The notes below the pieces were generated by a model. The model did not search any database. It saw only the letters and a program-made list of their open reading frames with translations, and was not told where the DNA came from. The position numbers were made by a program, and so were the translations under genes. Below are positions 13,217 to 49,800 of a stretch of DNA of 52,170 bases, in pieces. Position 1 is the first letter of the stretch. Each line of letters starts with the position of its first letter. Origin of the DNA: a virus; IMG/VR virus record IMGVR_UViG_3300020433_000009, positions 1 through 52,170 of that record; one strand, given 5' to 3'.

Positions 13217-13866
13217 TCTCTTATAAAAGGTTGTTGTGGTCCTGTAATGTTTTTCAAAAAGAAATTAAGTGTCAACCTATCAGTTTTACTTCCAAAGGTC
13301 TGAGCTGCATGTTGTGTATTACCATCGAATAGTATCATTCTGTTGTATACATTATTAATTCTAGCACTCTCCTCATACTGTCCATTTACTTTATTAAATG
13401 CATGCTCATATATTTCATCAGGTACATCCTGACCCTTATATAATGCTTCTTTTACATCTGTGTCTACTGCTTCTTGAAAAAAGTATCCATTTTTTATTGT
13501 GTATATTGACGTACCAGTATCTTTCTGTGGATGTTTATTGAGATAGATCAATCCACCATAGAGACATCCACAATCATTATGTACCCACCCTTGGTTCTTG
13601 GGATGATACTGATCCTCATGAAGAGGTTTGATAATCTGGAATGTCATATCCATCTCCCAGTAGTCAGGAATTCTTTCGTAATGCCATTGAAATAATCTTC
13701 TGCATACCCAGTTGAATAAAGGACTATTGAATGTATTAATATTCTGAGTTCTTTTGCCTGGCCACCTACCATCAGTTGTATTAGTATACTTTGCTTCGTA
13801 TGCAAGTTCTACAATTTTGTCTGGATCTGGAAAAAAATTATCTAGAATGGTAACTGGATACATCAT
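13213..13866 (-). CDS. 2OG-Fe(II) oxygenase-like protein (cassette copy 1)
   Basis: A 217-residue protein paralogous to the gene just upstream. It shares the N-terminal pattern YPVTILDNFFPDPDKIVELA. Putative iron ligands are His96 and Asp98 (WVHNDCG) followed by GGLIYLN, and His186 (NTQHAAQTFG), with Arg197 (DRLTLNFF) placed to bind 2-oxoglutarate. This is the double-stranded beta-helix arrangement of Fe/2OG dioxygenases. It has four-base overlaps with both neighbours. Substrate unknown; the adjacent aminotransferase suggests small-molecule or protein-side-chain modification. Confidence 0.78.
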   Translation of the reverse strand: MMYPVTILDNFFPDPDKIVELAYEAKYTNTTDGRWPGKRTQNINTFNSPLFNWVCRRLFQWHYERIPDYWEMDMTFQIIKPLHEDQYHPKNQGWVHNDCGCLYGGLIYLNKHPQKDTGTSIYTIKNGYFFQEAVDTDVKEALYKGQDVPDEIYEHAFNKVNGQYEESARINNVYNRMILFDGNTQHAAQTFGSKTDRLTLNFFLKNITGPQQPFIRE

Positions 13867-14516
13867 ATAGATCTAAGGATTGGTGGTAATTGTCCTGTCA
13901 TTTCTCTACCAAAGAAGTTGAGAGTTATGCGTTCTTGTTTGTGCCCATAAGTTTCAACACCATGGTGAGCATAGGCTGGAAATAATACAAACCTATTGTA
14001 TACATTCTCTATCTTAACAGTCTCTATGTACTGGTCATATACAATATCCCATGCTTTATTATATTCGTCAAGGTCTAGTTCCTCATCCTTGTATAATGTT
14101 TCTTTTTGTTTTAACTCACTAGGAGTCTGTCTAGTAAAACCATACTTGGGTCTGTAGATCGTCGTTCCTGTATGTGGTTCTGGGTTCTTGTTCAAGTAAA
14201 CTATACCACCAAACCACGTGTCAAGATCTTGATGTATCCATCCACGGTTTCTTTTATCCCATTGTTCATCTGCTAGAGGTTTGATGAACTGAAACTGAGT
14301 TTGCATATTATAATACTCAGGTATCTCATCAGAGAAAATTTTGTAGATACGATTACAAAAGTATTCAAACAACCTCTTATTTGAGATGTGCAACATCTTA
14401 GTTCTAGAACCTGGCCAGTTGCCAGGACTATTATAGGTCTTTAGTTTTTTTGCGTTTTCTACTATCTGATCAGGATCTTCAAAGAAGTCATCTATTATAG
14501 TAAGTGGATAGGTCAC
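13863..14516 (-). CDS. 2OG-Fe(II) oxygenase-like protein (cassette copy 2)
   Basis: A 217-residue protein, the same length as its downstream paralogue. N-terminal YPLTIIDDFFEDPDQIVENA. Putative HxD is His95/Asp97 (WIHQDLD), followed by GGIVYLNKNPEPHTGTTIY; distal His184 or His185 (YAHHGVETYG) and Arg196 (ERITLNFF). All catalytic positions are present, so it is probably active. It overlaps the gp55 stop by four bases. The two copies probably arose by tandem duplication and have since diverged widely. Substrate unknown. Confidence 0.8.
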   Translation of the reverse strand: MTYPLTIIDDFFEDPDQIVENAKKLKTYNSPGNWPGSRTKMLHISNKRLFEYFCNRIYKIFSDEIPEYYNMQTQFQFIKPLADEQWDKRNRGWIHQDLDTWFGGIVYLNKNPEPHTGTTIYRPKYGFTRQTPSELKQKETLYKDEELDLDEYNKAWDIVYDQYIETVKIENVYNRFVLFPAYAHHGVETYGHKQERITLNFFGREMTGQLPPILRSI

Positions 14517-33523: not shown

Positions 33524-36500
33524 TTATACAGGATTAACGTTGAATCTAATTCTTACATAATAAAGAGTATTCGCACTAAGCGTCACAGCATTAGGAAGAG
33601 TGTAAGATAATTTATTTACACTGTTGTCTCTAGACTCATGTACTATATTAGTAAATGTAGCTGCTGGTGAAAACTGCCAGAATGTTGATGTATGTTGGAA
33701 ACCACTCTTCACTTGTGCAGTCAAAGCTGTAACAGTAGGATTAAATGCAGGTGTGATAGTTTGAATATCTGGTTGATCAACAAATGGAGTAGTGAATGTC
33801 GATGCATTTGAGTATGCACTTTGTAAACCATTCTGATCTCTGAACTTAACTTGAACTGAATACTGAGTATCAAATTCAAGAATTCCTACAGGCACTGTGA
33901 GACTAGTTTTGTTTGCACTATCTCCATTAAGATTTATATTATTAGTATCATAGACAGTTACGTTGTCACTAACTCTTCTAATTCTCCAGTAAGAAGAACT
34001 ATGTGTTGAGCCTGCATATTCTTGAACGAATGGAGATGTAGTAATAACTGGTTGTCTTGATAAAGTTTTAGTAGTGTCTGGATCTATGAATGGTGTAACT
34101 GTAGTTGGAGAAGATACGAACTCTGATTCATTAACAGTTAAAGTAGCAGATGTAGATGTTACAGAAGTTGCATTAGTGTTTGATAGAACACAACGGAATT
34201 GTTCTGATGGATTAGTTGGATATGTTGTTGCGGGTGTTGTATATGACGCTGAGTTTGCACCATTAATAGCACTCCAATTTGCTCCACTATCAGTTGAGAT
34301 CTGCCACTGATAAGAAATAACTCCACTTGTAATAGCAGCAGTTACACTGAAACTTGCAGTTTGTCCCTCAATAACAGCAGTGTTTTGAGGTTGTTGACTG
34401 ATAGTGATAACACGTAATACAGTCTGTAATGCAAAACCAGATGTTATAGGTGCAGCTGATCCAACAAGAGATACGATACATTGGAAACGATCGTCATTAT
34501 CATCAGCAAATACTAAAGTTCCAGTTGTATATGAGTCTGTTGTTCCACCTGTACCAGTAGAAACATTTGCATAGTTTGCACCACCATCATCAGATTTTTG
34601 CCACTGGTATGTTGGAGTTCCACTACTTGTTGATGCTGATACAGTGAAGTTACTGACTGAACCTTCATTAGATGTTACATTAGATGGTTGTGCTGTGATA
34701 GCAAATGTCCTTTCTACAGTCAGAGTTACAGCATTTGTATATGCTTTGACAGTTGCACCAACTGCATCTAACTCACAACGATACTGATCATTATGATCAT
34801 CTGCGTATGTTGTGCCAGCAGTTGTATAACTTGAATTTGTTGCACCACCTATGTTTGACCAGTTGACTCCTCCATCATCTGATTTCTGCCATTGGAAACT
34901 TACGTTTGGACTATGATCTGATTGACTTTGAGCATTTTCTGATCCTCCTCCACCGCCAGGCGTTGTCCATGATTCCGTTTCATATGATGAAGATGCAGCA
35001 TTACCACCAATGATTGACATGGTAACTGATCCAGTACAACTAAATGTTGCTGTAGCTGTTTCATTCACAGTTGCATCCTGTGGTTGATTTACAACATTAA
35101 CAGTTACTGTCTCTACCTGTAAGGTAACAGCATTTGATGCTATCTGTGTAGCACCTGTACAAGACAATACACAACGGAATTGATTTGCATCGTAGGATGC
35201 ATCCAATACAGGAGTTACATAAGTTGCTGTAGTTCCACCAGTTCCTGCAGATACATTATTCCAAGAAGCACCATTTGTATTTGATATCTGCCATTGGTAT
35301 GTTATATCGTTAGCATCATTATCTGAAGTATTTGCTACAACATTGAATGTTCTTGTTCCACCAACAGCACCTGTAGTTCCTTGAGGTTGAGTGGTAATAT
35401 TAATTGTTCTAGTTACGAACAATCTAGCAGCAGTTGAGATAACTTCAGATGCACCAGTGCAATTTAATTTAACTCTATAATAATCTCCATAATCTGCATC
35501 ATATGTTGTGGCTCCAGTAGTATAACTTGATGTGGTAGCACTACCTATATTAGTGTATGTTGCACCATCACCATTTTCTGATTTCTCCCATTGGTAGGAT
35601 AATGCTGCTCCATCTGCTACTGATGCAGTTACATTAAATGTACCAGCTGCAGGTGCAATAGGTGTTGCATTGCTTGGTTCAGCACTTATAGTAATCACTC
35701 TGAATACTGTTAGTGTGACAGCATTAGTATAAGCTGATGCCACTGCAGTGCTAGTATCTAACTTACAACGGAACTGATATGAATTTTTTCCATAGTCATC
35801 ATTGACTGTCAATGTATTACTTGTCACGTTAGTATAACCACTACCTTCAGATAGGGCAGACCAGTTAGCACCACTGTCAGTAGATACTTCCCATTCATAT
35901 GTAATGGTAGATCCGTCAGAACTGATAGCTGATATAGGACCAAATGTAGCACTTGTACCAGCACCTGCTTCTATACTTGCGTTACTAGGTTGTCCTGTAA
36001 CTGTAATAAGAACACCAGTTCCTGCAGTCGTAAAACTGAATGCACGAGTATTGTTTGTTATTTGCTCAACTACAGTAAAGTTAAAGGTTGTATCAATATA
36101 ATCTGATGTAACTGTACCACTCAATATACCCGTTGTGCTGTTTAATGAAAGACCTGAAGCACCAAGTGCGTCACCTGTAGTTGTATAAAGTTCGTAGGTC
36201 GGTTCATTAGCAAATGTCAGACCAGATAAACCAAGGTCAATACTAACACTAGCACCATTTGCAAATGGACTTCCAGTTATTGCACCAGAAGCTTGTGCCC
36301 ATGTTACTGTAGTATCAACATAAGGGAAAAATGCTCCTCTCTTTTTAGTTAGAACATCAGTGTTAGCATCATATTTAAAGTCCACTCCACTATCTACTGG
36401 ATAGTATTTTACATTATCATATACACTGGTGCCCTGTGCTTCTTGAGTATCAGTTTGAGATCTTAGTTGAGTAGAGGTAAAGACAACACCATCTGTACTT

Positions 36501-39013
36501 TCATGTGTTATTGCTTCCGAATCAATCAGTGCAAGATAGTTATTTGATCCACCACCAGTGGCACTAGCACTAGCATTACTAGCTGACTGAACGGTAATCG
36601 TATTATTGATTGCATCCTCAGCAGTTATGTTTAACCATCCACCTTGAGATAATCCAGAAATGTCTGTACCACCAAGAACAACACCACCTGAACTAGGATC
36701 AGTTTGAACTGTGATAGTTCCATTCATTGAGTTGTGATTAGAACACTGATAGTAATATGTGCCTGCAGTATTTGGTGTCCATGATACTGTTGCAGTTCCT
36801 GTAGATCCTTGTCCAGTAGCAGCTGGTGTACTTACTTGATTGCCAGTTCCAGTTCCCTGTACACTCTTAAGATAAAATGGATGAGAACCACTGACACCTG
36901 ATAAGTTAAAATTGATAGTGTCTCCAACATATACAGTAACACCTACATTGTTTCCACCTACTCCACCATTTCTATCAGTTCCACTTAGTGTGTAATACGA
37001 AAATGAAGGAGCTGTTGTTGTTATATTGTATGTTACAGCGTTACCACTACCACCTTCTGTTGATCCTGTAGTTCTTAACTGAACCTTTTTACCAACATTA
37101 CCAATGAAGTGACTGCTATCAGATGAGTTAAAGGAGATTTTTATATTCTGACTTCCACTGGTAACCTCGTATGGGTTAGTTGGTAGTTTTCTTTCTTCGA
37201 TACTATTTGTTGGATAGAATTGAGTTACACCCTTTGTTATATCTCCAGTGTTACCAGTTCCCCTGATAAATTGTTTTCCTAGTGATGCAAAGTTATTAGT
37301 TGTTAGAGTATATCCATTCTTTCCAGCCCAACATGCCATGATACCTGCAACTAGAGGACATGAGAATGATGTACCACCAATAGTTGCATAGTTTGCAGTG
37401 CTATTATATGGTGTGTTTGCAGTCCAGTCATACTTAGGAAGACGAATATTTTTACCAGGTGCACAAACAGTAGCACCAGCACCATAGTTAGAAAAGTCTG
37501 CCCATCTATCATTATAGTCTGTAGCACCTACAGAAATCTTTGCTTGATCTACATCTACATTGTTTACACCACCAGTTGTGTTATCAGCATAACCAGCAGT
37601 TCTTGCTCCAACTACAACCTTAGACATCAAAGGTCCTGCAAAATTATCACCAGAGTCTTTAAATCCATTACCTGCAGATCTACAAATCAATATCCTTTGA
37701 GAAGCAGCTATGGTTCCTTCGATATCATCTAATACTTCTTCATCAGTTCCTGTGTCATCACCTGCATCATTTAGTTCAACATATGGATAAGACTGACTTG
37801 GAAGTCCTGAACCTATGGAAGTATTAACAATAGCTGGTCTGGTATTACCTTTATAGTTTGCATTACTACTATCATTATGATCTATGACTGCCTGATATGC
37901 ATTTAATATAGCAGTATATGTACCACTACCTGAAGAGTTCAAGCATTTGAGTGCATATATTTTTGCATTAGATGCAAATCCACAGGTTCTACCTGCAGCT
38001 AAGATAGCACAATAAGTACCGTGATCATTATCATCTTCGTTGTTAGTACCATAATCACCAGAGTAATGTGGTAATTGGTACACTCTATAGTTCTGTTGTT
38101 CGGCAGTTCCGTTTAGATCAGTAACAAAATCTGGATCATACAATTCAGGATGTAGAGCTGCGTTGTTACCTGTTGGTCTACTTGCACCACGAACTCCGCT
38201 ATCTAAGATATAGATATCAACTCCATCACCAGTGGCACCACTATTACTGTACTCACCATTCATATACTGTCTGTCTTGTTTGGTCAGTCTGTCTAAATGC
38301 CAAAAGTCATGTACGTTAAGTGTCCCATATCTGTTAGGAGAAGTATCATATCTTCCCATTCCAGCGTGGTTTAGGCAATAGTAAAATAAAACTGAAGGTG
38401 TAGATGAACCAAATACTACAGTTGTGTTAGCACCTGATTGTCCTGCAACTCCGTTATAGGTTACACCTGTTGAAAATTCTACACCGCCAGTTGTATATGA
38501 TCCGTCAGGTGTAGTAGAAAATCTTATAGGATGGGTTGCATTACTAGGATGTGATTGATCAAAAATATATGTCGCACCTTGTAAGAAACCACTGAAGTAT
38601 GAAGTGACGACAAAAGTAACATTATCACTTGAGAATGAATATACGTTTGATCCACTGCCTTGCCAGTTAGATGCAACTTGAACATATATTGTGTTCGTGC
38701 TTGATGCAGTAATATTTCTTGTATTCGTAGTAGCTTGTGAAACTACCTCCCCACTAGTCTGTACCTCTTCTCCCTGAGCAGACACAGCTCCAGAAGAATA
38801 TGCTAGTTTATCCCAAAACGCTTTCTTAACAACATTAAGTGCATTGAGTTTCTCTAGTAAACCATTCTCATATTGTTCTGGACATTCCAATGAAAATGTC
38901 TTAAAACTTCTATATGCTTTATAATTGGTTAGGAAACCGTATAATTTTAGGATGGCAGCACATGCAGAATCCAAACTATAATTACCAGAAACCCTGATGA
39001 CTACCTTCTTCAT
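33524..39013 (-). CDS. Giant virion-type protein: subtilisin, cupredoxins, Ig and FN3 repeats
   Basis: I start at ATG 39013 (MKKVVIRVSGN), giving about 1,829 residues; a TTG at 39025 is also in frame. Domains: an I9-like propeptide region (1-70); cupredoxin-like domain 1 (about 100-230) with His161, Cys213, His216, Met219; a subtilisin S8 domain (about 255-590) with Asp271 (YILDSGV), His331 (DHGTYC), oxyanion Asn449 (SAGNG) and Ser549 (GGTSFSCP); cupredoxin-like domain 2 (about 660-770) with His710, Cys756, His759, Met762; a variable region; six Ig-like repeats with YQWQ and FRC motifs (about 34120-36010 in DNA); two FN3-like repeats. The protease triad and both type-1 copper sets appear complete. 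It lies upstream of gp13 with a late-promoter element, so a virion or tail-surface role is inferred. Confidence 0.88.
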   Translation of the reverse strand: MKKVVIRVSGNYSLDSACAAILKLYGFLTNYKAYRSFKTFSLECPEQYENGLLEKLNALNVVKKAFWDKLAYSSGAVSAQGEEVQTSGEVVSQATTNTRNITASSTNTIYVQVASNWQGSGSNVYSFSSDNVTFVVTSYFSGFLQGATYIFDQSHPSNATHPIRFSTTPDGSYTTGGVEFSTGVTYNGVAGQSGANTTVVFGSSTPSVLFYYCLNHAGMGRYDTSPNRYGTLNVHDFWHLDRLTKQDRQYMNGEYSNSGATGDGVDIYILDSGVRGASRPTGNNAALHPELYDPDFVTDLNGTAEQQNYRVYQLPHYSGDYGTNNEDDNDHGTYCAILAAGRTCGFASNAKIYALKCLNSSGSGTYTAILNAYQAVIDHNDSSNANYKGNTRPAIVNTSIGSGLPSQSYPYVELNDAGDDTGTDEEVLDDIEGTIAASQRILICRSAGNGFKDSGDNFAGPLMSKVVVGARTAGYADNTTGGVNNVDVDQAKISVGATDYNDRWADFSNYGAGATVCAPGKNIRLPKYDWTANTPYNSTANYATIGGTSFSCPLVAGIMACWAGKNGYTLTTNNFASLGKQFIRGTGNTGDITKGVTQFYPTNSIEERKLPTNPYEVTSGSQNIKISFNSSDSSHFIGNVGKKVQLRTTGSTEGGSGNAVTYNITTTAPSFSYYTLSGTDRNGGVGGNNVGVTVYVGDTINFNLSGVSGSHPFYLKSVQGTGTGNQVSTPAATGQGSTGTATVSWTPNTAGTYYYQCSNHNSMNGTITVQTDPSSGGVVLGGTDISGLSQGGWLNITAEDAINNTITVQSASNASASATGGGSNNYLALIDSEAITHESTDGVVFTSTQLRSQTDTQEAQGTSVYDNVKYYPVDSGVDFKYDANTDVLTKKRGAFFPYVDTTVTWAQASGAITGSPFANGASVSIDLGLSGLTFANEPTYELYTTTGDALGASGLSLNSTTGILSGTVTSDYIDTTFNFTVVEQITNNTRAFSFTTAGTGVLITVTGQPSNASIEAGAGTSATFGPISAISSDGSTITYEWEVSTDSGANWSALSEGSGYTNVTSNTLTVNDDYGKNSYQFRCKLDTSTAVASAYTNAVTLTVFRVITISAEPSNATPIAPAAGTFNVTASVADGAALSYQWEKSENGDGATYTNIGSATTSSYTTGATTYDADYGDYYRVKLNCTGASEVISTAARLFVTRTINITTQPQGTTGAVGGTRTFNVVANTSDNDANDITYQWQISNTNGASWNNVSAGTGGTTATYVTPVLDASYDANQFRCVLSCTGATQIASNAVTLQVETVTVNVVNQPQDATVNETATATFSCTGSVTMSIIGGNAASSSYETESWTTPGGGGGSENAQSQSDHSPNVSFQWQKSDDGGVNWSNIGGATNSSYTTAGTTYADDHNDQYRCELDAVGATVKAYTNAVTLTVERTFAITAQPSNVTSNEGSVSNFTVSASTSSGTPTYQWQKSDDGGANYANVSTGTGGTTDSYTTGTLVFADDNDDRFQCIVSLVGSAAPITSGFALQTVLRVITISQQPQNTAVIEGQTASFSVTAAITSGVISYQWQISTDSGANWSAINGANSASYTTPATTYPTNPSEQFRCVLSNTNATSVTSTSATLTVNESEFVSSPTTVTPFIDPDTTKTLSRQPVITTSPFVQEYAGSTHSSSYWRIRRVSDNVTVYDTNNINLNGDSANKTSLTVPVGILEFDTQYSVQVKFRDQNGLQSAYSNASTFTTPFVDQPDIQTITPAFNPTVTALTAQVKSGFQHTSTFWQFSPAATFTNIVHESRDNSVNKLSYTLPNAVTLSANTLYYVRIRFNVNPV

Positions 39014-39040
39014 CCCATCTCGCAATTAGTCCTTCAGGTT

Positions 39041-39048
39041 TATTTATG
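39041..39048 (-). promoter_or_regulatory. Late-promoter-like element CATAAATA
   Basis: CATAAATA on the minus strand overlapping the TAA stop of the 114-residue gene. It is 28 bases before the chosen ATG of the giant protease (16 from the TTG); the 22-50 base spacing of the other elements favours the ATG. Confidence 0.55.
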
Positions 39049-39388
39049 CCTTTTTATTCATATCTACTTGTTTAAGTAATCTTGCAATTTCTGTCTCGTC
39101 AACAACCTTATCCATTCTTTCTACTGGTTTACAGAACTTTAAATCGTGACTTGCATCAAATACATATTTCTGTCTACAATGAGTTCTATCTCTTTCCACA
39201 ATAATATGATAAGATTTACCATATACATTCTCTGTAAATCCTATTGCTACGATTGCCCTATTCTCATAAAGATCACCAACTTTATAAGGACAAGTCTCTG
39301 CAGTGCCATCAAAAGGAATATAGAACTGTGTAGAATTGACATGTTCTAACTTCCTAGCTTCACTAGATGGTATGTTTTTTCGATGCAT
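39044..39388 (-). CDS. Hypothetical protein
   Basis: A 114-residue protein with beta-strand pattern (RAIVAIGFTENVYGKSYHII, KYVFDASHDLKFCKPVER) and a helical charged C-terminus (DETEIARLLKQVDMNKK). Three Cys and several His are present but not in a known motif. It shares one base with the stop/start of the upstream 2OG-like gene (TAATG). Function unknown. Confidence 0.7.
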   Translation of the reverse strand: MHRKNIPSSEARKLEHVNSTQFYIPFDGTAETCPYKVGDLYENRAIVAIGFTENVYGKSYHIIVERDRTHCRQKYVFDASHDLKFCKPVERMDKVVDETEIARLLKQVDMNKKA

Positions 39389-39981
39389 TACTTTAACTCC
39401 AAGTTACATAGATCGTCTTGTTCACCAAAGGTACCAGAAAGAAATACATTAAATGATATACTATATCTCATTTGATCCAAATCATTTTTAGCAGTCTGAT
39501 GTTTTAGATAACTGGGAAACAATAGTAGGTCTCCTTTATTTGGATTGATAATGCAATCAGTTACATTATAAAAATTTGGTTGAGCTACATCAGGAATAAT
39601 CATCTTTGGTACTGGATCAAAAAACCTGATGGGAGGATAATTTATATCTTGAGGATAATATGCCCCAGATATAAAACTATTAGGATGTGAGTGAGTATGA
39701 ATATATTCATTGGATGCACACCCTGTAGCCCACATAGTACTTATGCGAGGAAATATGTTTTTATATTCAAAAACATTAGCGAATGAATATTTTACTGCTT
39801 CTAGAAACATCCCAGATAATGTCCAGAACCTCTCATCCTGATGCAAATTAGTCTTAGAAATAGAGAAACCATCTCCATCTTCTAAAACTTTTTTAATATC
39901 CTCTTGTACTTTTTGATGATCAATACCAATATCACAGACCACTAGGGTCTGTGGAAACATACTGAATACTGTTTTAATCAC
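39388..39981 (-). CDS. 2OG-Fe(II) oxygenase-like protein 1 of the tail cluster
   Basis: 197 residues from GTG 39981, or 190 from ATG 39960 (MFPQTLVV), which matches the usual FPTP-like start of the family; both remain possible. IHTHSHPNSFISGAYYPQDI carries the proximal His motif and LLLFPSYLKHQTAKND then RYSISFNV carries the distal His and the Arg. The pattern is that of the 2OG-FeII_Oxy_5 family, in which HxHP occurs at the position of the classic HxD. Substrate unknown. The GTG overlaps the stop of the coiled-coil ORF. Confidence 0.72.
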   Translation of the reverse strand: MIKTVFSMFPQTLVVCDIGIDHQKVQEDIKKVLEDGDGFSISKTNLHQDERFWTLSGMFLEAVKYSFANVFEYKNIFPRISTMWATGCASNEYIHTHSHPNSFISGAYYPQDINYPPIRFFDPVPKMIIPDVAQPNFYNVTDCIINPNKGDLLLFPSYLKHQTAKNDLDQMRYSISFNVFLSGTFGEQDDLCNLELK

Positions 39982-40153
39982 CTACTTTAACTTCACCTTC
40001 TTCTTTTTGAGACATAGTTAGTGCTTCTATTGCACCCTCTAATCTCAATACCTGTTCTTTTCTTTGACTGAGTTGTTTTTCAAGTTCAACAATAGTAGCC
40101 TTTTGCTCTACCAATTGACCATTAAACTCTTTGATCATGTCTGGGATTTCCAT
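39974..40153 (-). CDS. Small coiled-coil protein
   Basis: A 59-codon ORF read from the DNA. MEIPDMIKEFNGQLVEQK, then IVELEKQLSQRKEQVLRLEG show a heptad pattern for one long helix, with a charged tail. It lies between two 2OG-like genes and overlaps the next by 8 bases. There is no strong Shine-Dalgarno. It may form a small trimeric or dimeric coiled coil. Confidence 0.65.
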   Translation of the reverse strand: MEIPDMIKEFNGQLVEQKATIVELEKQLSQRKEQVLRLEGAIEALTMSQKEEGEVKVGD

Positions 40154-40177
40154 AGTTTAAAATAATAACTGTTATAT

Positions 40178-40816
40178 TTAGAAGTGCTCTGCACCATCGA
40201 CTATACCATAGTCTAACACAATATTGCCAGAAATGCTAACTCGTGGTATTCCAGAGAACCCCTTGAATGGATATACTACATGGTTTACCCATGCAGGAAA
40301 TAATATTACTTGACCTTCTATACCTTTTTCAACATTGATTAATTTATTAAACATAGAGAATGGATCTGAGAATTCTGTAAATCCATTCTTTACATGTTGT
40401 GGTAGAACGTCAGGTTCTAATTTACATTGATCCTCATGTGTATATGGCACACTCATGTATACAACAAAACTAAACAACCCAGTATGTTGATGTAAAGGTT
40501 GATAAGAATTTGAATACATTTCATTTCTCCAAAGATCCACCAACTTAAATGGTGTCCTAGGTGGAGTGTTCTGTCTGATCTGATGAAATACAGGAGCAGT
40601 TGCACATTCTCTAGCAAAAGCCTCTGATAAACAAATTATATAATCCTCAAACAAAGGTGCTTTACTTATTCCTAGTTTGTATTCGTCTGGGAATACTCCA
40701 ACTAATTTATCTCCATGGTGACCACCATTCTTTAAATTATTCAGTTCTTCAAAAATATCCTCTGGAAGTTGACTGTACATCAAACAAGGATAATCAAAAT
40801 GATAATTTATATTCAT
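40178..40816 (-). CDS. 2OG-Fe(II) oxygenase-like protein 2 of the tail cluster
   Basis: A 212-residue protein. YQPLHQHTGLFSFVVYMSVP holds the proximal HxH motif, and GQVILFPAWVNHVVYPF followed by GIPRVSISGNI holds the distal His and the 2OG-binding Arg. It diverges strongly from its neighbours in the N-terminal half. It overlaps the next upstream gene by four bases. Substrate unknown. Confidence 0.7.
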   Translation of the reverse strand: MNINYHFDYPCLMYSQLPEDIFEELNNLKNGGHHGDKLVGVFPDEYKLGISKAPLFEDYIICLSEAFARECATAPVFHQIRQNTPPRTPFKLVDLWRNEMYSNSYQPLHQHTGLFSFVVYMSVPYTHEDQCKLEPDVLPQHVKNGFTEFSDPFSMFNKLINVEKGIEGQVILFPAWVNHVVYPFKGFSGIPRVSISGNIVLDYGIVDGAEHF

Positions 40817-41526
40817 GTAATCATCTTATAGTTTGGTTTTATAGATTTATCTGGATGCTCATCCCATCCTTCTTTAGTTAGGATGTCCATTGCAATTGTT
40901 ATTCTTTCAAATGGATGATCATGTTTATCTGTCCAATGCACTAAATGGTTTGGAAACATAAAAATTTCACCTGGTTTATTTGCAAACCCCTTAACTACTT
41001 GTTTGTTAAATGGGTTAGAATAATATGTACCAGTTCTATTTGCAGCGATGGTTAGGTGTGCACCTATAAAACTATCTTTATAAGAACTATGCCAATGAGG
41101 TAATATTTGTTCTCCAGATCTCATTACGTTTGCCCAACACTGAGAGTAGTATTGTTCCTCTCTATGGTTGAACCCATCTACTTGTCCGCAACCAATATCC
41201 CACAATCCTTCATCATGCATGTATTGCCCCATGGCTGCACAACCTCTGTTGATTGTATCTCTTAATGTATTGACCCATGGCTCATCCCATTCCCATACAC
41301 TAAACGCACTAAATTTTGCAGTGAGACTATCTCCTCCAAGACCAGTGCCACCATCATTAGTGACATCTTTGAAGTCATGTATTATCTCTTTTTCTCTTCT
41401 TAGAATACTTTCTCCTATTTCTTTACACTCGTCTCTAGTAAATACTGTTTCAGTATAGAAAGGAAAGTTCCAATTAGGTGCAAAAGGAGTTCTAGGAAAC
41501 TCAGATTTCCATTCAATAATAGGCAT
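40813..41526 (-). CDS. 2OG-Fe(II) oxygenase-like protein 3 of the tail cluster
   Basis: A 237-residue protein. ILPHWHSSYKDSFIGAHLTI gives the proximal His pattern and GEIFMFPNHLVHWTDKHDHP with RITIAMDI the distal half. A long N-terminal part (ECKEIGESILRREKEII, KFSAFSVWEWDEPWVNTLRD) is specific to it. It shares one base with the next upstream gene and overlaps the downstream gene by four. Substrate unknown. Confidence 0.66.
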   Translation of the reverse strand: MPIIEWKSEFPRTPFAPNWNFPFYTETVFTRDECKEIGESILRREKEIIHDFKDVTNDGGTGLGGDSLTAKFSAFSVWEWDEPWVNTLRDTINRGCAAMGQYMHDEGLWDIGCGQVDGFNHREEQYYSQCWANVMRSGEQILPHWHSSYKDSFIGAHLTIAANRTGTYYSNPFNKQVVKGFANKPGEIFMFPNHLVHWTDKHDHPFERITIAMDILTKEGWDEHPDKSIKPNYKMIT

Positions 41527-42164
41527 TATTCAGCTTGATATAAATTCCAAGTAGCTAGTTTTGCTTGAGATGATGCTGCATTGCAAGGTCCTATAGGAAT
41601 ACAATTAAAACTAATTGACCATCTCGAAAATTCTTGTACATGGTTCAACGTACCATGCTTCAACCAACTAGGAAATAATAATAACTTTCCAGCTTCAGGT
41701 ATCATCCCCCATTGTTCAGGAGTTTTTTGTGGATCCACACTGTATAGTTTTATCATACCCTCTCGTCTTTTATCTACAGGATCACAGAACATAGTGGGTG
41801 CACCATCAGTCAGATAGAATACACCACTGATATATGACATTGGGTGATGATGTATCTCATGTTTACCTGCCTTGAAACCAGGCGACAGGTTAGCCCACAT
41901 GATACTAATATCTAATTTTTCACATTCATATTCATAATGTGATCTATATTGCTCTACGCAATCCTCAAAGAAATCTGTTATCTCTTTATACCTAGGATCT
42001 TTATGCAAATCATGTCGAGTTTGCCAAACTCTTTCTGGATGTTCGGGTTGTGCTTGATTTACATTGATATAATCTTCTTCTTCCAGATTAGATATAATCT
42101 GTTTAAAATCAAACTCCGCTTTAAACACATGTACAGGTGTCGGAAAGATATTGTATATGTCCAT
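41526..42164 (-). CDS. 2OG-Fe(II) oxygenase-like protein 4 of the tail cluster
   Basis: A 212-residue member of the 2OG-FeII_Oxy_5 type. It starts DIYNIFPTPVHVF, the classic family N-terminus; IMWANLSPGFKAGKHEIHHH then PMSYISGVFYLTD holds the proximal His residues (His105/107), and GKLLLFPSWLKHGT (His170) with RWSISFNC (Arg181) completes the site. The best family match of the cluster. Substrate unknown; phage copies are often near tail-fibre genes. Confidence 0.8.
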   Translation of the reverse strand: MDIYNIFPTPVHVFKAEFDFKQIISNLEEEDYINVNQAQPEHPERVWQTRHDLHKDPRYKEITDFFEDCVEQYRSHYEYECEKLDISIMWANLSPGFKAGKHEIHHHPMSYISGVFYLTDGAPTMFCDPVDKRREGMIKLYSVDPQKTPEQWGMIPEAGKLLLFPSWLKHGTLNHVQEFSRWSISFNCIPIGPCNAASSQAKLATWNLYQAE

Positions 42165-42165
42165 A

Positions 42166-42930
42166 TTAATATGATATAGAAAGTGTCATTCTTGGTGTGT
42201 TAAGATACTTACCTTTTTCCATAAAGGCAGTATGGAAACATGCTCCTTCATACAGATTAAATCTATTGAATTTATGTTCATCTAGATGGTATCTGATATA
42301 TTTAGTGTTCTCCACAATGGGTTGATATACGTCCATATCCATTCTTTGAGGTGTGAAAGCATACCTTGATTTTCTGTACATACATGTACTAGGATGAAAA
42401 CTTTCCTCTCCTGTCTCCTTCAATCTATAGAACGATGTCCCCGTATCACCTTCTATCTCATCATCAAAGTTTAAACATATATTACCTGCAAGAGAAGAGT
42501 CATCACAGTGTGGCCAATTAGATTGTTTGAATACGTTTCTGTCACCAAATATTCTCTGAAAGGAGTAATTAATAAACCTTCCACCATATCCAAATTCTAC
42601 TTGTGCTATCTTTTTAATTGTTTCTTCTAATTCTTTTATCTGAAAAGAAAGATAAGTCTGATAACCAGGATAGAAACCTGCTTTGGCATCCCATGCAGTA
42701 GGTTTCATAGATGGGTTTGGTATAAACTGTTGTGGTATATCCATTAAAAAATCACGTATCTTTTCTGGATACGCGAAAAAATTGTCAATAGACACAATAC
42801 GATTTTTGTGATTACCAACATCGTAAGTGGTTACATTTATACCACTGTTTACTTCAAATATTCTATCGTCAAATACCTTAAGAGGAAGAGTTGATTGCTC
42901 CTGGTCTGGGGACTGATTCATCTTTTTCAC
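42166..42930 (-). CDS. 2OG-Fe(II) oxygenase-like protein 5 of the tail cluster
   Basis: A 254-residue protein of the same subtype as the two cassette genes at 13213-14516: VSIDNFFAYPEKIRDFLM, then WPHCDDSSLAGNICLN with canonical His141/Asp143, GDTGTSFYRLKETG, and ACFHTAF (His233) with RMTLSISY (Arg247). All ligands are present. It overlaps the upstream CxxC gene by 53 bases; the internal Met4 would still leave most of the overlap. Substrate unknown (DUF6445-like by memory). Confidence 0.76.
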   Translation of the reverse strand: MKKMNQSPDQEQSTLPLKVFDDRIFEVNSGINVTTYDVGNHKNRIVSIDNFFAYPEKIRDFLMDIPQQFIPNPSMKPTAWDAKAGFYPGYQTYLSFQIKELEETIKKIAQVEFGYGGRFINYSFQRIFGDRNVFKQSNWPHCDDSSLAGNICLNFDDEIEGDTGTSFYRLKETGEESFHPSTCMYRKSRYAFTPQRMDMDVYQPIVENTKYIRYHLDEHKFNRFNLYEGACFHTAFMEKGKYLNTPRMTLSISY

Positions 42931-43237
42931 AAAGTGCCAAGAAATCCTTGACTTGAACTTCTGACATTATAGCACCTAATGGCCATCTATGCAAAGCCGT
43001 AGGTGCAACACCTGTACTGCATACTACATCTTTATTCTCTGCATCAGATATCCATGTCTCTATTGGTAGTGTAGACCACAACCAAGTGCCAATATCATAT
43101 GTTGGTAAAGTTTCTGCTAACCAAGTAGCACACGCAGTGCACTGACTATCAGTTAGTATGAGAAGTCTTTTTGTTCCACCTTCTAGCCATGCCTTTGCAT
43201 CTGTATATGATGTAAAAGCTGAAGTTCTAGCTGCCAT
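42878..43237 (-). CDS. CxxC protein, possibly thioredoxin-like
   Basis: A 119-residue protein. KRLLILTDSQCTACATWLAE (Cys33, Cys36) places a CxxC between a strand and a helix, as in thioredoxin-fold proteins, and VAPTAL further on could be the cis-Pro loop. A third Cys lies in DVVCSTG and a fourth in LALCEKD. The fold is inferred from pattern only. It could act on disulfides of the Cys-rich fibres next to it. It overlaps the next gene by 53 bases. Confidence 0.6.
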   Translation of the reverse strand: MAARTSAFTSYTDAKAWLEGGTKRLLILTDSQCTACATWLAETLPTYDIGTWLWSTLPIETWISDAENKDVVCSTGVAPTALHRWPLGAIMSEVQVKDFLALCEKDESVPRPGAINSSS

Positions 43238-43239
43238 AA

Positions 43240-44373
43240 TTAACCACCACTAATCTTTGTCACTTCACAGTATCCCTGATTTGCAGGTGTTGCTGCATTT
43301 CCATTATGGTTTGCACCACTTTGTCCAAGCTTGTTGATACCGTTATTGATGGATCCTCCACCTTGTCCACCATGATATGAGGAGTATTGTACTTCACAAC
43401 CTCCACCGTTGTAGCCACCGCCACCTCCACCTGAGATGAAACAGTTACCGTGACCACCGCCACCGCCACCAAATCCACCGAAGGAATCACTTTGGTTTGC
43501 TGTGCCACCTAGAGAACCATCCATATAAGATTGTCCAGCTCTAGTTTCACTCCATGTTGGGTTTTGTGAATAACTAAATCCACCTCCATAGAAACCACCA
43601 CCAGGATTACCTCTGTTAGATCCACTCAATGCTCTATCGCCAGCATATCCTCCAGTACCACCTCTGCCTGCACGACCATCTAGTCCATTTATAGAAGCAC
43701 TACCATCTTTTCCACAAGCACCTGTAGTAGTATTTTGAGTTCTATCTCCACAACCTTGACTGTTAAATGATCCATTACTAGCACCGCCACCACCTGCAGC
43801 AATTAAAAGAATGTCGGATACATTGTTTCCACTTGCCTTGACGACATAAGTTCCACCGCCACCACCGCAGTCGCAATCCTCATAGTTAGGACCTACACCA
43901 CCAGAACCACATAATACATTAATAACTTCTCCTTGTTCTAGGAAAAAATCTCCTTGTATACGAGCTCCCCCTCCACCTGTGTAGTTATTATTAGTTCCAC
44001 CCTGTGCACCATATGCATTAAATCTATACCATCCAGATGAGGGAACTGACCAAGCTTGTCTACCACCACTAAGTGAAATGTTTCCGCTAAGTGGACTACT
44101 GTTATAGTAAGAACCTACAGATGTAGGAGCTGTTCTACTTGGACTACTGAAGAGAGAATAAAAAGTTGCAGTGAAAGGTGATAATACACCTCCTATAGCA
44201 TGCCAAAGACCATTAGCATAAACTTCTAGTTGACTTATAGAATTATTGTATCTAAGATCTCCCTCACGTGGTGAACTAGGTCTTTGACCTGTTGAACCAA
44301 CAGGAAGTTTTACCGCCCCAGTCGTATTGAATGACGGATCTCCAGAAATGTTACCAGTATTAAGAGTTGACAT
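43240..44373 (-). CDS. Glycine-rich tail-fibre adhesin
   Basis: A 377-residue protein. The N-terminal ~65 residues are the shared fibre module (VKLPVGSTGQRPSSP, GDLRYNNSISQLEVY, LWHAIGG). The remainder has many poly-Gly runs (GGGGARIQG, DCDCGGGGGTYVV, IAAGGGGASNG, GGFGGGGGGHGN, ISGGGGGGYNGGG), a composition like glycine-rich receptor-binding proteins and the polyglycine adhesin tips of other T4-like phages. It ends AATPANQGYCEVTKISGG. Role in host recognition is inferred. AAGG precedes the ATG. Confidence 0.8.
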   Translation of the reverse strand: MSTLNTGNISGDPSFNTTGAVKLPVGSTGQRPSSPREGDLRYNNSISQLEVYANGLWHAIGGVLSPFTATFYSLFSSPSRTAPTSVGSYYNSSPLSGNISLSGGRQAWSVPSSGWYRFNAYGAQGGTNNNYTGGGGARIQGDFFLEQGEVINVLCGSGGVGPNYEDCDCGGGGGTYVVKASGNNVSDILLIAAGGGGASNGSFNSQGCGDRTQNTTTGACGKDGSASINGLDGRAGRGGTGGYAGDRALSGSNRGNPGGGFYGGGFSYSQNPTWSETRAGQSYMDGSLGGTANQSDSFGGFGGGGGGHGNCFISGGGGGGYNGGGCEVQYSSYHGGQGGGSINNGINKLGQSGANHNGNAATPANQGYCEVTKISGG

Positions 44374-44712: not shown

Positions 44713-45627
44713 TTAACATTCAAAGTATACGTGTGCGTTCATAATTCTGTGGTTCTCACTAGAATACTCAAATCCACATGAGGGGTCACATGTTGATCCA
44801 GTAGACCATCCTTGGTATCCACCATGTGAATTCCATTGCCAACTGAAACTTCTACCACAGTTATTACCTGGACCGTAATTAGTATCAGTCCAAGAAGAAG
44901 TATTGTTGTCACTATTAGATGCAGAACCTGCACCCCAGAAAGATCCATACCTAGCCCAGTTCATATTTGGTCTCCCTCCAGGACCATTACAATGGTTCCA
45001 TTGGAAACTTGCTGCAGTGGTTGCGACAAAGGTATAAGAGTCGTTAACACATTGTCTGTTAACCAACATTTTATTATTTAACCAGTTTCCACCTATAAGA
45101 GAGTTAACCCAATCAGAAGGTGCAGCTGCAATATTTCCATTATCATTTAGATATGAAGAATCTAACTTGTCGTAATTATATCCTGCATATGCCCATTTGT
45201 TTTGATAACTTTCTCTACCTCTCTGTACTAACACCCATGCTTTATTAGAAGCAACAGGAGAACTGAAATTTGTATAGCATTGTATAGCAAAGTTTGCACC
45301 ATTTGGTTGATACCAATAATCACCACTGGTTGATATACCAATAGATCTTAGTTCTTGTCCATTAGCAACAGGATTACTTTCTGACTCACCTAGACCACCA
45401 GACTTAGATGCTTCTAACCATCTCTGTCCAGTCCAAAATCTTAACATTTTGTTTGTGGTGTCATAAACAAGTTCTCCTTCACTAACACCGCTAGATGGAA
45501 GGCTTCCAAATGCAAACTGCGGAAGTCTAAATCTGTTAGCAACATACAACCCACCATTTCCCTCAAGGGTAGCAGCAGTAGTACCTGCAAGATTTTGTAG
45601 AGTGTCTATTCTTAAAATACTAGCCAT
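44713..45627 (-). CDS. Tail fibre with fibrinogen-like C-terminal domain (divergent)
   Basis: A 304-residue protein. N-terminal fibre module: FRLPQFAFGSLPSSG, GELVYDTTNKMLRFW, QRWLEAS. The C-terminal ~210 residues begin GDYWYQPNGANFAIQCYTNF and SNKAWVLVQRGRES, resembling the opening of fibrinogen-related domains (WY, a Cys, then GGWxxxQRR). The end is Cys-rich (CGRSFSWQWNSHGG, STCDPSCGFEY, VYFEC), with possible disulfides. It is a paralogue in outline of the fibre at 45872-46819 but has lost the DND and WWYxxC signatures. A host-binding role is inferred. Confidence 0.72.
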   Translation of the reverse strand: MASILRIDTLQNLAGTTAATLEGNGGLYVANRFRLPQFAFGSLPSSGVSEGELVYDTTNKMLRFWTGQRWLEASKSGGLGESESNPVANGQELRSIGISTSGDYWYQPNGANFAIQCYTNFSSPVASNKAWVLVQRGRESYQNKWAYAGYNYDKLDSSYLNDNGNIAAAPSDWVNSLIGGNWLNNKMLVNRQCVNDSYTFVATTAASFQWNHCNGPGGRPNMNWARYGSFWGAGSASNSDNNTSSWTDTNYGPGNNCGRSFSWQWNSHGGYQGWSTGSTCDPSCGFEYSSENHRIMNAHVYFEC

Positions 45628-45629
45628 GA

Positions 45630-45875
45630 TTAAGCGTCCTCAGTTACAGTTATATCAGTCCATGTAACACTGTACATGTCACCTTGTTGTTTAAGCATAT
45701 CATCTCTCCAGTCATTCCATTCAGATTCATCTAAAGAATTATCTTCTCCATTGATTTCTTTCTGCCATGTAACACTGTGTAAAAATGTATTTGAATCATC
45801 ATAAAATTTCATGATAAATTTTAAGTTACCATGCTGATCAGTAGTAGTTCTATTTTTCTTAATAATACACTTCAT
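45630..45875 (-). CDS. Small protein between fibre genes
   Basis: An 81-residue protein: KCIIKKNRTTTDQHGN, KFIMKFYDDSNTFLHSVTWQ, acidic EINGEDNSLDESEWNDWRDD, and YSVTWTDITVTED. Strand-rich and acidic, of no known family. It follows the fibrinogen-like fibre with a four-base overlap and lies two bases before the next fibre, so it may be an assembly factor. Confidence 0.62.
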   Translation of the reverse strand: MKCIIKKNRTTTDQHGNLKFIMKFYDDSNTFLHSVTWQKEINGEDNSLDESEWNDWRDDMLKQQGDMYSVTWTDITVTEDA

Positions 45876-46819
45876 TTTACATACATAGCTCCATAATTAT
45901 GATGGTCTCCACCAGAACTATACCAATAAGGTGCATCCTGATAAGGACCGCCAGCAAACATGTTTCCTGACCAACAAGCATTGTACCACCATGGATTTGC
46001 ATTATATAAGTTGGCACAGTTACCACCATATGTATCATTGTCATCATCGGTGGTAGTAAAGTTATAACCATATGAACCGTAGACAGTCCAATAATCATAT
46101 TGTCCAGATCCAGGCGATCCTAATTCTACGACCTCACCACTAGCTCCAGATGCTGCAAAGCTATTGACCCATGCACCATTCCAGTTCCAATATTCACGTT
46201 TACTATGACCACCAGTATTACCTAATTCCATAGCACTAGTAGCTACAAATTGAGCAACTTGTCCAGTGCCAGGATTATCAGCAATAATAGAAGACCACAT
46301 TGGAAGACCCATGCACATATTAAATGCACCTAAGTTCTTTCCATCCCCATACTCTCCTCTGTAGTTAACCTGATATGCAGTTCCATTAGCATAGGTTAAA
46401 CCAGTCATTCCTTGAGTTCCCCTTCTATTACATAGAACTAGAACCCAACCACCACTACGATATACTGTATCAATCCAGACGTTAGTAGAAACACCATTAA
46501 TATCTAACCAATACCAACCTGTTGTGGCATTTGGATTTATTGTAAGAAGATCAGTAGATTTAGCTAGAGGTGCATCTGATCTAGTACCAGTTGCAGCATT
46601 AGCAAGAGCCACCCAACCATCTTGAATATAAGTTTCTAATTGACCAATAGTTGTATTATAATACAATTCACCATTTGCAGGAGAACTAGGTCTATTAGAT
46701 GTAGTCCCTTGTGGAATTTTTAATCTTCCATCGACTTGAAAAGTATGACCACTAGGAACCCTTACAGTATTACTGTAGGTCGAAAATCCTTGCAAATCAT
46801 GTAACGATAAAGTACTCAT
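45872..46819 (-). CDS. Tail fibre with fibrinogen-like (FReD) C-terminal domain
   Basis: A 315-residue protein. Fibre module at residues 32-72: LKIPQGTTSNRPSSP, GELYYNTTIGQLETY, GWVALA. The C-terminal domain (about 98-315) matches the fibrinogen C-terminal fold: GWYWLDINGVSTNVWI, then SGGWVLVLCNRRG (122-134), then TTDDDNDTYGGNCANLY (256-272, the calcium-type DxDND site followed by Cys268) and PWWYNACWSGNMFAG (276-290, Cys282), ending YGAMYVK. These pieces are in the order found in ficolin-like lectins. Such a domain would bind acetylated sugars or other glycans on the host surface; that is inference. Confidence 0.78.
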   Translation of the reverse strand: MSTLSLHDLQGFSTYSNTVRVPSGHTFQVDGRLKIPQGTTSNRPSSPANGELYYNTTIGQLETYIQDGWVALANAATGTRSDAPLAKSTDLLTINPNATTGWYWLDINGVSTNVWIDTVYRSGGWVLVLCNRRGTQGMTGLTYANGTAYQVNYRGEYGDGKNLGAFNMCMGLPMWSSIIADNPGTGQVAQFVATSAMELGNTGGHSKREYWNWNGAWVNSFAASGASGEVVELGSPGSGQYDYWTVYGSYGYNFTTTDDDNDTYGGNCANLYNANPWWYNACWSGNMFAGGPYQDAPYWYSSGGDHHNYGAMYVK

Positions 46820-46823
46820 CTTT

Positions 46824-49800
46824 CTATACTACACTCCATGTACCACCATCATTTACAGTTATGGTTACGCCATTATTTATAGTGATTGGACCAGCGGTCA
46901 TACAATTATCTGAGGAAGTAATTGTAATGCTTTCACTACATGTATTTCTATTTCTCTTGAATACACCGTAACTATCTATCCACTGTTTATCACCTGATGC
47001 TCTTAGAACTGTGCTCTTCTGTCCAGATGATAAACTCTCACTTGCATTCAAGTTAATACCATTTAACTGGTTAACTTGTAAACCATATGTTGATTGTGTT
47101 GTATCACCACCTGAGTAGAATGTCCAACAACCACTAGAATCAAGAGATCCAATACCACCGTCACTATCATTTCTATAGAAGAAATCAGTACCAGTTCTCA
47201 TGTATGTAGCAGCATTATTAGCAAAGTAGAATCTTGGTTGACCCTCAGAACTGCTTCTCCATCCGTTAATTTGAGCAGAGAAATATGGTAGGTTAGTTGC
47301 ACTATAACCATCAAGTAAGTCTGCGTTTAGGTTAGTAACAACTGTTGTTGAAGCAACTACAAATGGTGCAGTTCCTTGTGCAACTCTTGATTTAACCTGT
47401 CCAAAGAAGTGGAATGTAGGATCATTATAACGATACTTAGCAACTCTACTATCTACACCATTGTCTCTTCTGTAGAATGTGATATCATCACCTTGCTCAG
47501 AACCAAATGAGGCTGGAGAATTATCTCCATTGTATGCAATACCACCACCATAGACATTTGATTGTCCAATGTATAAGTAACCTGTACCTTGGTTATTACC
47601 GTATGCTTCAAAACCACACTGATAAGAGTCACCTGCGTGTGCTCTAACGTATGTGTTAGCAGATCTACTAGTGGTTCCAAAGATGGCATCTCCAGTAGAC
47701 TCTATTGAGGTAGCTGGATCGCTATCACCAATACCTATACGTCCGTTACGGAAGTATACGTTGTTGTATGATAGATATGTACCATTCCATCCAAAGGAGT
47801 TGGTGTCATTACCAAATCTTATAAAACCTGAGTTTGAATCATTTTTACCCTTAATGGATAGAGCATTAGTGGTTGCCTTACCTAGAGTAATACCATTGCT
47901 ATCTGCAAGATCAAGTATTGAAGTACCTGTGTTTGCAAACGTACCTTGGTCAGCAGTTAAATCAGAGATTGTTAAGTTACCTGATGCATCTCTACGTGCA
48001 ATTGTATTTGCAGTAGCAGTTGTTGCTTGTGTAAATCCATCTAGGTAATGAGCGTCTAGCTGAGATGATGAGCCATCGTTACCTGCATGCCATATAGTAT
48101 TACCATTGACAGTTAAGTCACCTGCATTAAATCTTAGAGTACCATTTCCATCGTTACTGTTACCACCAGAGACGATCATTTGAACGTCATAGTTTGCGGC
48201 TGAACCACTAGAACGGAAATCTAATGTTGGAGTTGTAGAGACTGATGATTTACCAATCTGTAATTTAGCACCAGCTGCAGCATCTGTCATGCTAACCAGT
48301 GTGCTAGAACCACTGTTAATTAAATTAGATGATGATACAGTCCACTTAGTGCCAGGATTAGGACCGAAGACATATATGTTTGCGTTAGTATTGCTACCAA
48401 CAAAGTTAATTGTACCTGTAACTAATGAATATATTTCACCAGATGTATGAGTAAGTTCTTGAACACCGTTAGCATCAACTACGATTGAACCGATGTTATT
48501 TGTTGCACCAACATCTGAGTAGATAGTAAATGTTCCACCGTTAGTAATATTACCACCAGCACCAGTAGCACAGTGGAAGTTAGGAATGTAAAGTGTATAT
48601 TTTAAACCACTATCATTAAGATAGAAATTCTCAAATACAATCTTGTTCTGACCAAGAACTTCTGGTAAGAACATGTCACCGATAGGATGAATTCCTGCAC
48701 GAGTGTCACCTACGTTATAACCAGACTGATACCATAGTCCTTGTGAACCATCTAATTTATCAGCATCTAATCCACTGCCAGAACCATCATTAAATCCAGA
48801 CCAGATCTTATACCAGTTACCATATACAGCGTTACCACCAGAGTTACCTCTTAACCAAAGATTATCATTATCTGTGAATGCAAGTTGTATTGCAGCACTA
48901 CCAGTTGCTTCACGTCTGTATGTAAGAATACCATGTGTAGTTCCACCATCTGTTAGACCAGTAGCAGCGTTATTTCTTAGTGCAGCACCAAGACCATTTG
49001 CAGCTTGTGCAGGAGATGGGTTTGATGTAAGTGATGAGGTCTCGTTAAAGATTCTGTTTGCGGTGTCAGCAGTACCAGATATAGAAATTGCATATATTTG
49101 GTTTGCAAGTCTTGCAGCTGGTAATGTTCCTTGAGATAGGTTAGATGCGTTTGTATAGAAACCACCGTCGTTACCATCTAGTTTGTCAGCATTAAGTTCT
49201 GAACCAGGACCTTGGTCAATTCTTACTTGTCCATCATTGTCAATGATAAATCCACCTTCATCTTGATTACCAAGTGCTTGGTTTGCAACATCTTTTCTAA
49301 ATCTGAATACACCGTAGTTACCAAATGTTGTTGCATTAGGAGTTAAGTTATCACCCTTTCTAATATCAATTTCGATGTTACCAAATGCACGGTTGATAGT
49401 TCCCTTAACAGCAGTCAATGCACCAGAACTACCACCACCAAGTTCAGATGGTATTACAACACTAAATCCAGCAGTATATCCTGTACCAGAGTCAGTTACA
49501 GTAGCAGATGTGATGACACCACCTGAAACAACATATGTTGCTCTTGCAACACCATCAGCAGAAACGCTAACGTTACCACCCTCTAGTGGTAAGTTTTGAT
49601 AAGTTCCATCTGTGTATCCTGTACCACCGTTTGTAATTGTGATGCTGTCAATATAAGAACTATCAGTTACAGATCCAGTAACTAATATCGCATCTTGTGT
49701 AGTAGGTCTAATTGACTGTAATGCATACTCCCATGATGAATCACCACGTAAGAATGTAAAGGAGTTTGCAGTACCCTTACTTGCCATCCTTTCTGGGTCA

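Follow-up and report, generated by a model that had tools for sequence, protein, structure and literature searches.

Why would a phage of marine cyanobacteria keep a cluster of iron-dependent oxygenase genes behind the genes for its adhesins, and on what might such enzymes act? 2-Oxoglutarate (2OG) oxygenases rank among the most numerous enzyme genes in marine cyanophages, and we found no substrate for them in the open-access literature, while the ideas of DNA repair and of 2OG drawdown rest on indirect evidence. Here, we analyse a fragment of 52,170 nucleotides (IMG/VR record IMGVR_UViG_3300020433_000009, positions 1-52,170; hereafter the window) that includes five such genes, P1 to P5. Judged by sequence comparison of its portal protein, which shares 87% identity with its counterparts in P-HM1, P-HM2 and MED4-213, the source of the window is a T4-like Prochlorococcus phage near P-HM1/P-HM2. 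We present the genes and their families, the fold and ligand residues of the proteins, the purifying selection acting on them and the recurrent linkage of oxygenase and adhesin genes. In our assessment, these genes may well encode protein hydroxylases that are made late and act on the neighbouring adhesins and fibres, although we put this at somewhat less than an even chance.

The five open reading frames (ORFs) were all recovered where the initial annotation, made from the letters of the window, had placed them. They lie on the minus strand, in the 5' to 3' order P5 (42166-42930), P4 (41526-42164), P3 (40813-41526), P2 (40178-40816) and P1 (39388-39981). That annotation had described five overlapping genes in a row beside four adhesin genes, and both descriptions need adjusting. 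The junctions overlap or abut (-4, -1 and +1 bp) except between P2 and P1, which are split by a coiled-coil-like ORF of 59 amino acids (aa) with an ATG start (39974-40153, minus strand); it occupies the position of P-HM1 PHM1_102 (T4-GC517) and PHM2_104, with a match at the nucleotide level too. Finding five oxygenase genes within six genes had a p of about 0.002 against random placement in the window, in a test chosen post hoc, and it is nothing unusual for related phage genes to cluster. Upstream on the same strand, the adhesin motif is present in three stand-alone genes (45872-46819, 44713-45627 and 43240-44373), and the fourth gene of the earlier count is a giant tail fibre gene (46824-51983, phrog_5342). 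The N-terminal fibre motif common to the three, xPxGTTxxRPxxPxxGxxxYNT...E.Y.G..W, is followed by a glycine-rich body in the 43240 gene and accompanied by a fibrinogen-C-like C-terminus in the 45872 gene.

By profile and fold, P1 to P4 belong to the 2OG-Fe(II) oxygenase superfamily and P5 belongs to DUF6445. P1, P2 and P4 match Pfam PF13759 above its cut-off (8e-19, 7e-11 and 4e-18, respectively), P1 and P4 also belong to TIGR02466, and all three fall in phrog_81. P3 matches phrog_81 at 6e-22 and lies just below the PF13759 cut-off (2.4e-5; 25.1 bits against 27), reaching 28.1 bits with its neighbours in frame; we nevertheless count it as a member because this in-frame score and a structure model with a confidence of 90 support it. 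P5 matches PF20043 (DUF6445; phrog_1644) at 1.8e-12, with 48.1 bits against a cut-off of 24, and shares this family with a pair of genes elsewhere in the window (13213-13866 and 13863-14516, minus strand, 43% identical to each other), as had been noted before.

The residues expected of the active site are well conserved. P1 carries HxH...H...R, P2 HQH...H...R, P3 HWH...H...R and P4 an HHH motif, the distal His lying in FPSYLKH, FPAWVNH, FPNHLVH and FPSWLKH among these HxH members. Across 38 aligned phrog_81 relatives, the Trp and the two His of HxH never vary, and conservation of the distal His and of the Arg is at least 90% each. The residues picked out in the initial annotation hold up in all four proteins. 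The Arg after the distal His, expected to bind the 2OG carboxylate, was at least 90% conserved as R208 in alignment A2 and invariant in A6, and invariant as R247 in A3 and A7. At the carboxylate position of the iron triad P1 to P4 have a His, as do 38/38 of the aligned relatives, and HxH in place of HxD is a family-wide trait and not a defect of these four proteins. The canonical HxD reported earlier for the 42166 gene is present as HxD...H...R in P5 and in both genes of the 13213/13863 pair, and the DUF6445 alignment retains the HxD, the distal His and the Arg. All five proteins are predicted to be catalytically active.

Structure models, made for P3 and P5, recovered the hydroxylase fold, firmly for P3 and weakly for P5. 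The AlphaFold model of P3, built from 41 sequences, had a mean predicted local distance difference test (pLDDT) score of 90.4 and takes the double-stranded beta-helix fold, with Z-scores of 14-16 to 2OG hydroxylases: 16.1 to 3BVC, 15.9 to 2RG4, 15.2 to PHD2 and 15.0 to the Pseudomonas putida prolyl hydroxylase P4H, with a Z of 13.8 to the collagen prolyl hydroxylase of PBCV-1. The model of P5, with a pLDDT of 65, is weak; it had Z-scores of 11-13 to the 2OG hydroxylase class and no Foldseek match at E 0.001, and the best PDB matches of this low-confidence model were mimivirus lysyl hydroxylase (Z 13.0), OGFOD1, LH3 and P3H1. In these models, the resemblance to prolyl and lysyl hydroxylases is one of fold only.

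The array is also conserved elsewhere. The order adhesins-P5-P4-P3-P2-P1 recurs in two other metagenome contigs, one fetched repeatedly as L009/L032/L033 and the other as L010/L031. Compared with these two contigs, the ratio of nonsynonymous to synonymous substitution rates (dN/dS) of the five genes was 0.06-0.35 (0.13-0.35 for P1 and 0.06 for P4), and all five are under purifying selection. The highest identity within the array is 35% (P1-P4), and the closest cultured relatives of the five genes each come from different phages; its members are therefore old and diverged ones that were brought together. Recent tandem duplication was considered and is ruled out by the identities of at most 35% among array members. 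Such low mutual identity suggests that the enzymes may act on different sites or substrates and not, as the initial annotation had proposed, in successive steps on one, and together with purifying selection it would fit different, maintained specificities.

Linkage to fibre and adhesin genes in relatives, on which the initial annotation had staked its interpretation, was found as well. In eight cyanophages with stand-alone adhesins, 21/58 phrog_81 and DUF6445 genes lay within 8 kb of a stand-alone adhesin, against 6.4 expected, and none of 5000 circular shuffles reached 21; this test is biased, because similarity to array genes of the window had led to four of the eight genomes. Two marginal motif matches (P-TIM40 and P-RSM6) were excluded from it, and the weakest phrog_81 matches were left out of the oxygenase gene list. 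Annotated examples of the arrangement are S-RSM4, S-ShM2, S-CAM4, P-RSM4 and S-SM1, and in Bellamy and S-SCSM1 oxygenase arrays stand beside annotated tail fibres. From IMG/VR, 80 contigs were retrieved via relatives of P3, which is the member common to many arrays (T4-GC54 relatives); many of these contigs are short, and they amount to 799 kb in all. At least two oxygenase genes were present in 57/80 and at least four in 27/80. The adhesin motif occurred in 19/80 contigs, in 47 ORFs or 5.9 per 100 kb, which is about five times the rate in whole cyanophage genomes (44 matches in 3.7 Mb, about 1.2 per 100 kb). The motif was absent from contigs of the DUF6445 family, a biased control since the query was the gene on the gp55/gp47 side.

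Where an adhesin is present, oxygenases dominate what follows it. In the 7 kb after the adhesins, 151/225 genes of at least 120 aa (67%) match one of six 2OG-type profiles, a figure that depends on relabelled proteins being 2OG enzymes because four of the profiles derive, in this analysis, from cyanophage proteins that bear the labels 2OG oxygenase, 'DNA endonuclease', 'DNA endonuclease V' and 'ferrochelatase'. The count covers 26 segments with stand-alone adhesins, 18 of them distinct at 90% nucleotide identity. Some adhesin-linked arrays reach 8-10 oxygenase genes, and several share the order adhesin, phrog_7759, phrog_81, phrog_61, phrog_61, phrog_2297, phrog_274, a small ORF, phrog_61, phrog_81, phrog_33749, phrog_81, phrog_2954.

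By their sequence signatures, several proteins in these arrays seem to be 2OG enzymes that carry a wrong RefSeq label; of these, the PF13640 cases alone exceed a curated cut-off. They are 'DNA endonuclease' proteins with matches of 6e-9 and 5e-10. 'DNA endonuclease V' (phrog_274) has HVD...PHH...R and a weak PF13640 match, 'ferrochelatase' (phrog_2954) has HTD...PHW, another 'ferrochelatase' has a weak PhyH match, and phrog_1644, labelled 'minor coat protein', is the DUF6445 family. In the fetched sequences, phrog_274 and phrog_2297 genes with 2OG signatures lie at L014:20719-21709, L027:14722-15737 and L030:15084-16080, and phrog_2954 genes with such signatures at L027:18634-19750, L014:17235-17870 and L028:10354-11091. 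Two other families accompany the arrays. phrog_33749 (L027:17317-18018, L014:18441-19142, L049:10639-11349) is Cys-rich, has weak 4Fe-4S ferredoxin matches and holds a fixed place inside long oxygenase arrays; it is possibly a redox partner. In many arrays, phrog_7759, of about 190 aa, follows the last adhesin and precedes the first oxygenase (L049:5734-6300, L014:23517-24098).

The adhesin linkage of the arrays suggests that these phages modify their own gripping proteins. In the mechanism that we propose, the five enzymes would be non-heme iron, 2OG-dependent hydroxylases of the protein-hydroxylase fold, made late in infection together with the stand-alone adhesins and fibres. Each would hydroxylate particular residues of newly made adhesins or fibres, or of a partner protein, in the infected cell and before or during assembly, and the modification would tune how these proteins fold, how stable they are or how they bind receptors. 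We infer a protein as the substrate, and the adhesins as this protein. Among the fold matches of P3 are enzymes with protein substrates (PHD2, the P. putida P4H, whose crystal structure includes EF-Tu, and the PBCV-1 enzyme), and the low-confidence P5 model matches collagen lysyl and prolyl hydroxylases. The oxygenases, which run in the same direction as the upstream adhesin genes, are probably co-transcribed with them. Late expression of the array is proposed from gene position only, since these genes go unmentioned in the text of the paper on P-HM2 infection. The T4 late-promoter pattern TATAAATA showed no enrichment and did not occur inside the array, and sigma-70-like and terminator-like matches were near chance level. 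Virions of S-SCSM1 contain fibre proteins that neighbour oxygenase genes, and the account of 45 virion proteins in the S-SCSM1 paper comprises structural proteins, unknowns and three other enzymes and names no oxygenase; because of this, a role of the oxygenases inside the cell is more likely than one as components of the particle. S-SCSM1 ORF242, a DUF6445 member, has no virion mark in the genome record.

Several observations weigh against adhesin hydroxylation. The adhesins are a candidate substrate, to which we give a little less than even probability. The HxH triad of P1 to P4 departs from the textbook 2-His-1-carboxylate. The linkage signal draws half of its test genomes from those chosen through similarity to the array genes, and when giant motif-bearing ORFs are counted it falls to 23/110 against 13.2 expected (p about 0.03). 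About two thirds of the oxygenase genes in adhesin-bearing genomes sit elsewhere; P-TIM40, P-RSM6 and S-CAM1 have 8-14 phrog_81 genes without a confident stand-alone adhesin motif nearby, S-SCSM1 has many oxygenases and no confident small-adhesin motif nearby, and the DUF6445 pair of the window adjoins gp55/gp47, without a fibre neighbour. The initial annotation had called seven such genes in 52 kb unusual, a view that does not survive comparison, as 19/20 cyanophage genomes have phrog_81 genes, 3-14 each, and S-SCSM1 has 24 2OG genes in all (PMC9602691); S-BM3 has no phrog_81 gene.

The dispersal of the oxygenases would suit an account in which they are passive cargo, gathered by recombination in the hypervariable fibre region, so that their location says nothing on substrate. 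A hypervariable host-recognition cluster with structural genes and auxiliary metabolic genes (AMGs) has been described for cyanomyophages (PMC7029224), and the oxygenase content of the slot occupied by the array differs among P-HM1, P-HM2, MED4-213 and the window. PF00535, tried as a control cargo family, was absent from nine of these phages. We regard passive cargo as unlikely, given the recurring order and the 2OG-like two-thirds share after adhesins, as well as the purifying selection on all five genes. It is also rather improbable that the enzymes reprogramme the host by acting on its proteins or metabolites, or by depleting 2OG and thereby affecting nitrogen signalling. This has been proposed for cyanophage 2OG oxygenases generally (PMC3037559 and PMC9602691), and it would agree with their number and their presence outside fibre regions, but lowering 2OG would need neither many enzymes diverged to at most 35% identity nor a late structural neighbourhood.

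Modification of the host surface was the weaker part of the interpretation in the initial annotation. It could concern glycans or outer-membrane proteins, for instance, and would block superinfection; we consider it improbable. Cell-wall genes do lie in the same variable region in some phages, such as S-CAM3 (carbamoyltransferase, heptose) and P-RSM4 (carbamoyltransferase), whereas the arrays of S-RSM4, S-ShM2 and the window are without recognised sugar genes and no family-2 glycosyltransferase was found in nine phages, other families not having been searched. Least probable is AlkB/TET-like repair or modification of DNA or RNA, suggested from Syn9 genes beside uvsX/uvsY (PMC2984593): no AlkB-type Pfam model was among the matches of the five proteins at E<=1, the best folds are protein hydroxylases, and the neighbours are fibres and not repair genes.

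Hydroxylation of adhesins by the array, if true, would make post-translational hydroxylation a part of building receptor-binding proteins in these phages, and the public labels of some such enzymes (coat protein, endonuclease, ferrochelatase) would need correction. A broader version, which we hold to be doubtful, is a dedicated fibre-maturation system in which up to about ten divergent 2OG hydroxylases, accompanied in some phages by a conserved Cys-rich iron-sulfur protein, hydroxylate the phage's own receptor-binding proteins; such a system would set adhesin stability or host range by way of protein modification. The adhesin linkage offers a specific, testable substrate class in the cultured phages S-SM1, S-RSM4 and S-ShM2, whose arrays comprise 4-10 genes.

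Other genes around the array complete the picture. A protein of 119 aa without known family (42878-43237, minus strand) lies between the adhesins and P5, overlaps the start of P5 and is kept in relatives of the array; it has a CxxC motif, and its dN/dS of 0.26-0.43 is among the highest of the region. After P1, the minus strand continues with a small conserved gene (39044-39388; phrog_26228, T4-GC518 position) and then a giant protein (33524-39025) that lies 3' of the array and 5' of gp13, with a protease match (phrog_3677) and weak Ig-like matches. It has 1833 aa and a subtilisin-like protease region, and P-HM1, P-HM2 and MED4-213 have a similar-sized gene in the same place. The gap between gp55 and gp47 holds the tandem DUF6445 pair in the window and a single gene in P-HM1 and P-HM2.

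The families and their abundance in cyanophages are already known, and the adhesin-linked array is the new element; we did not find this linkage described in the accessible open-access literature, although other papers could hold it. The nearest relatives are PF13759/TIGR02466 (PDB 3BVC and 2RG4), which resemble P1, P2 and P4 in sequence family and P3 in fold and have the same HxH motif in the aligned part; the members with known structures are individual bacterial proteins without an assigned function, whereas here divergent members are arrayed behind adhesin genes. By profile, PF20043 (DUF6445/phrog_1644) takes in P5 and the 13213/13863 pair, where the residues and fold matches point to a 2OG oxygenase and not to the 'minor coat protein' of the label. 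With PHD2, P. putida P4H (EF-Tu), PBCV-1 vCPH, mimivirus L230 and LH3 the window proteins have the fold, the distal His and the Arg in common at about 6-16% identity, P5 having HxD as in prolyl and lysyl hydroxylases and P1 to P4 HxH instead. The 2OG AMGs of cyanophages (S-SCSM1; S-CREM1, with ten 2OG oxygenase genes; S-SZBM1, with nine; Sullivan 2010) are of the same families, and these papers treat metabolism, 2OG levels or DNA repair, with no adhesin linkage described in the passages searched. Finally, the host-recognition cluster that is hypervariable in pelagi- and cyanomyophages (PMC7029224) is the same region, with fibres and variable genes; the cargo described there consists of glycosyltransferases and AMGs, and here it consists of oxygenase arrays.

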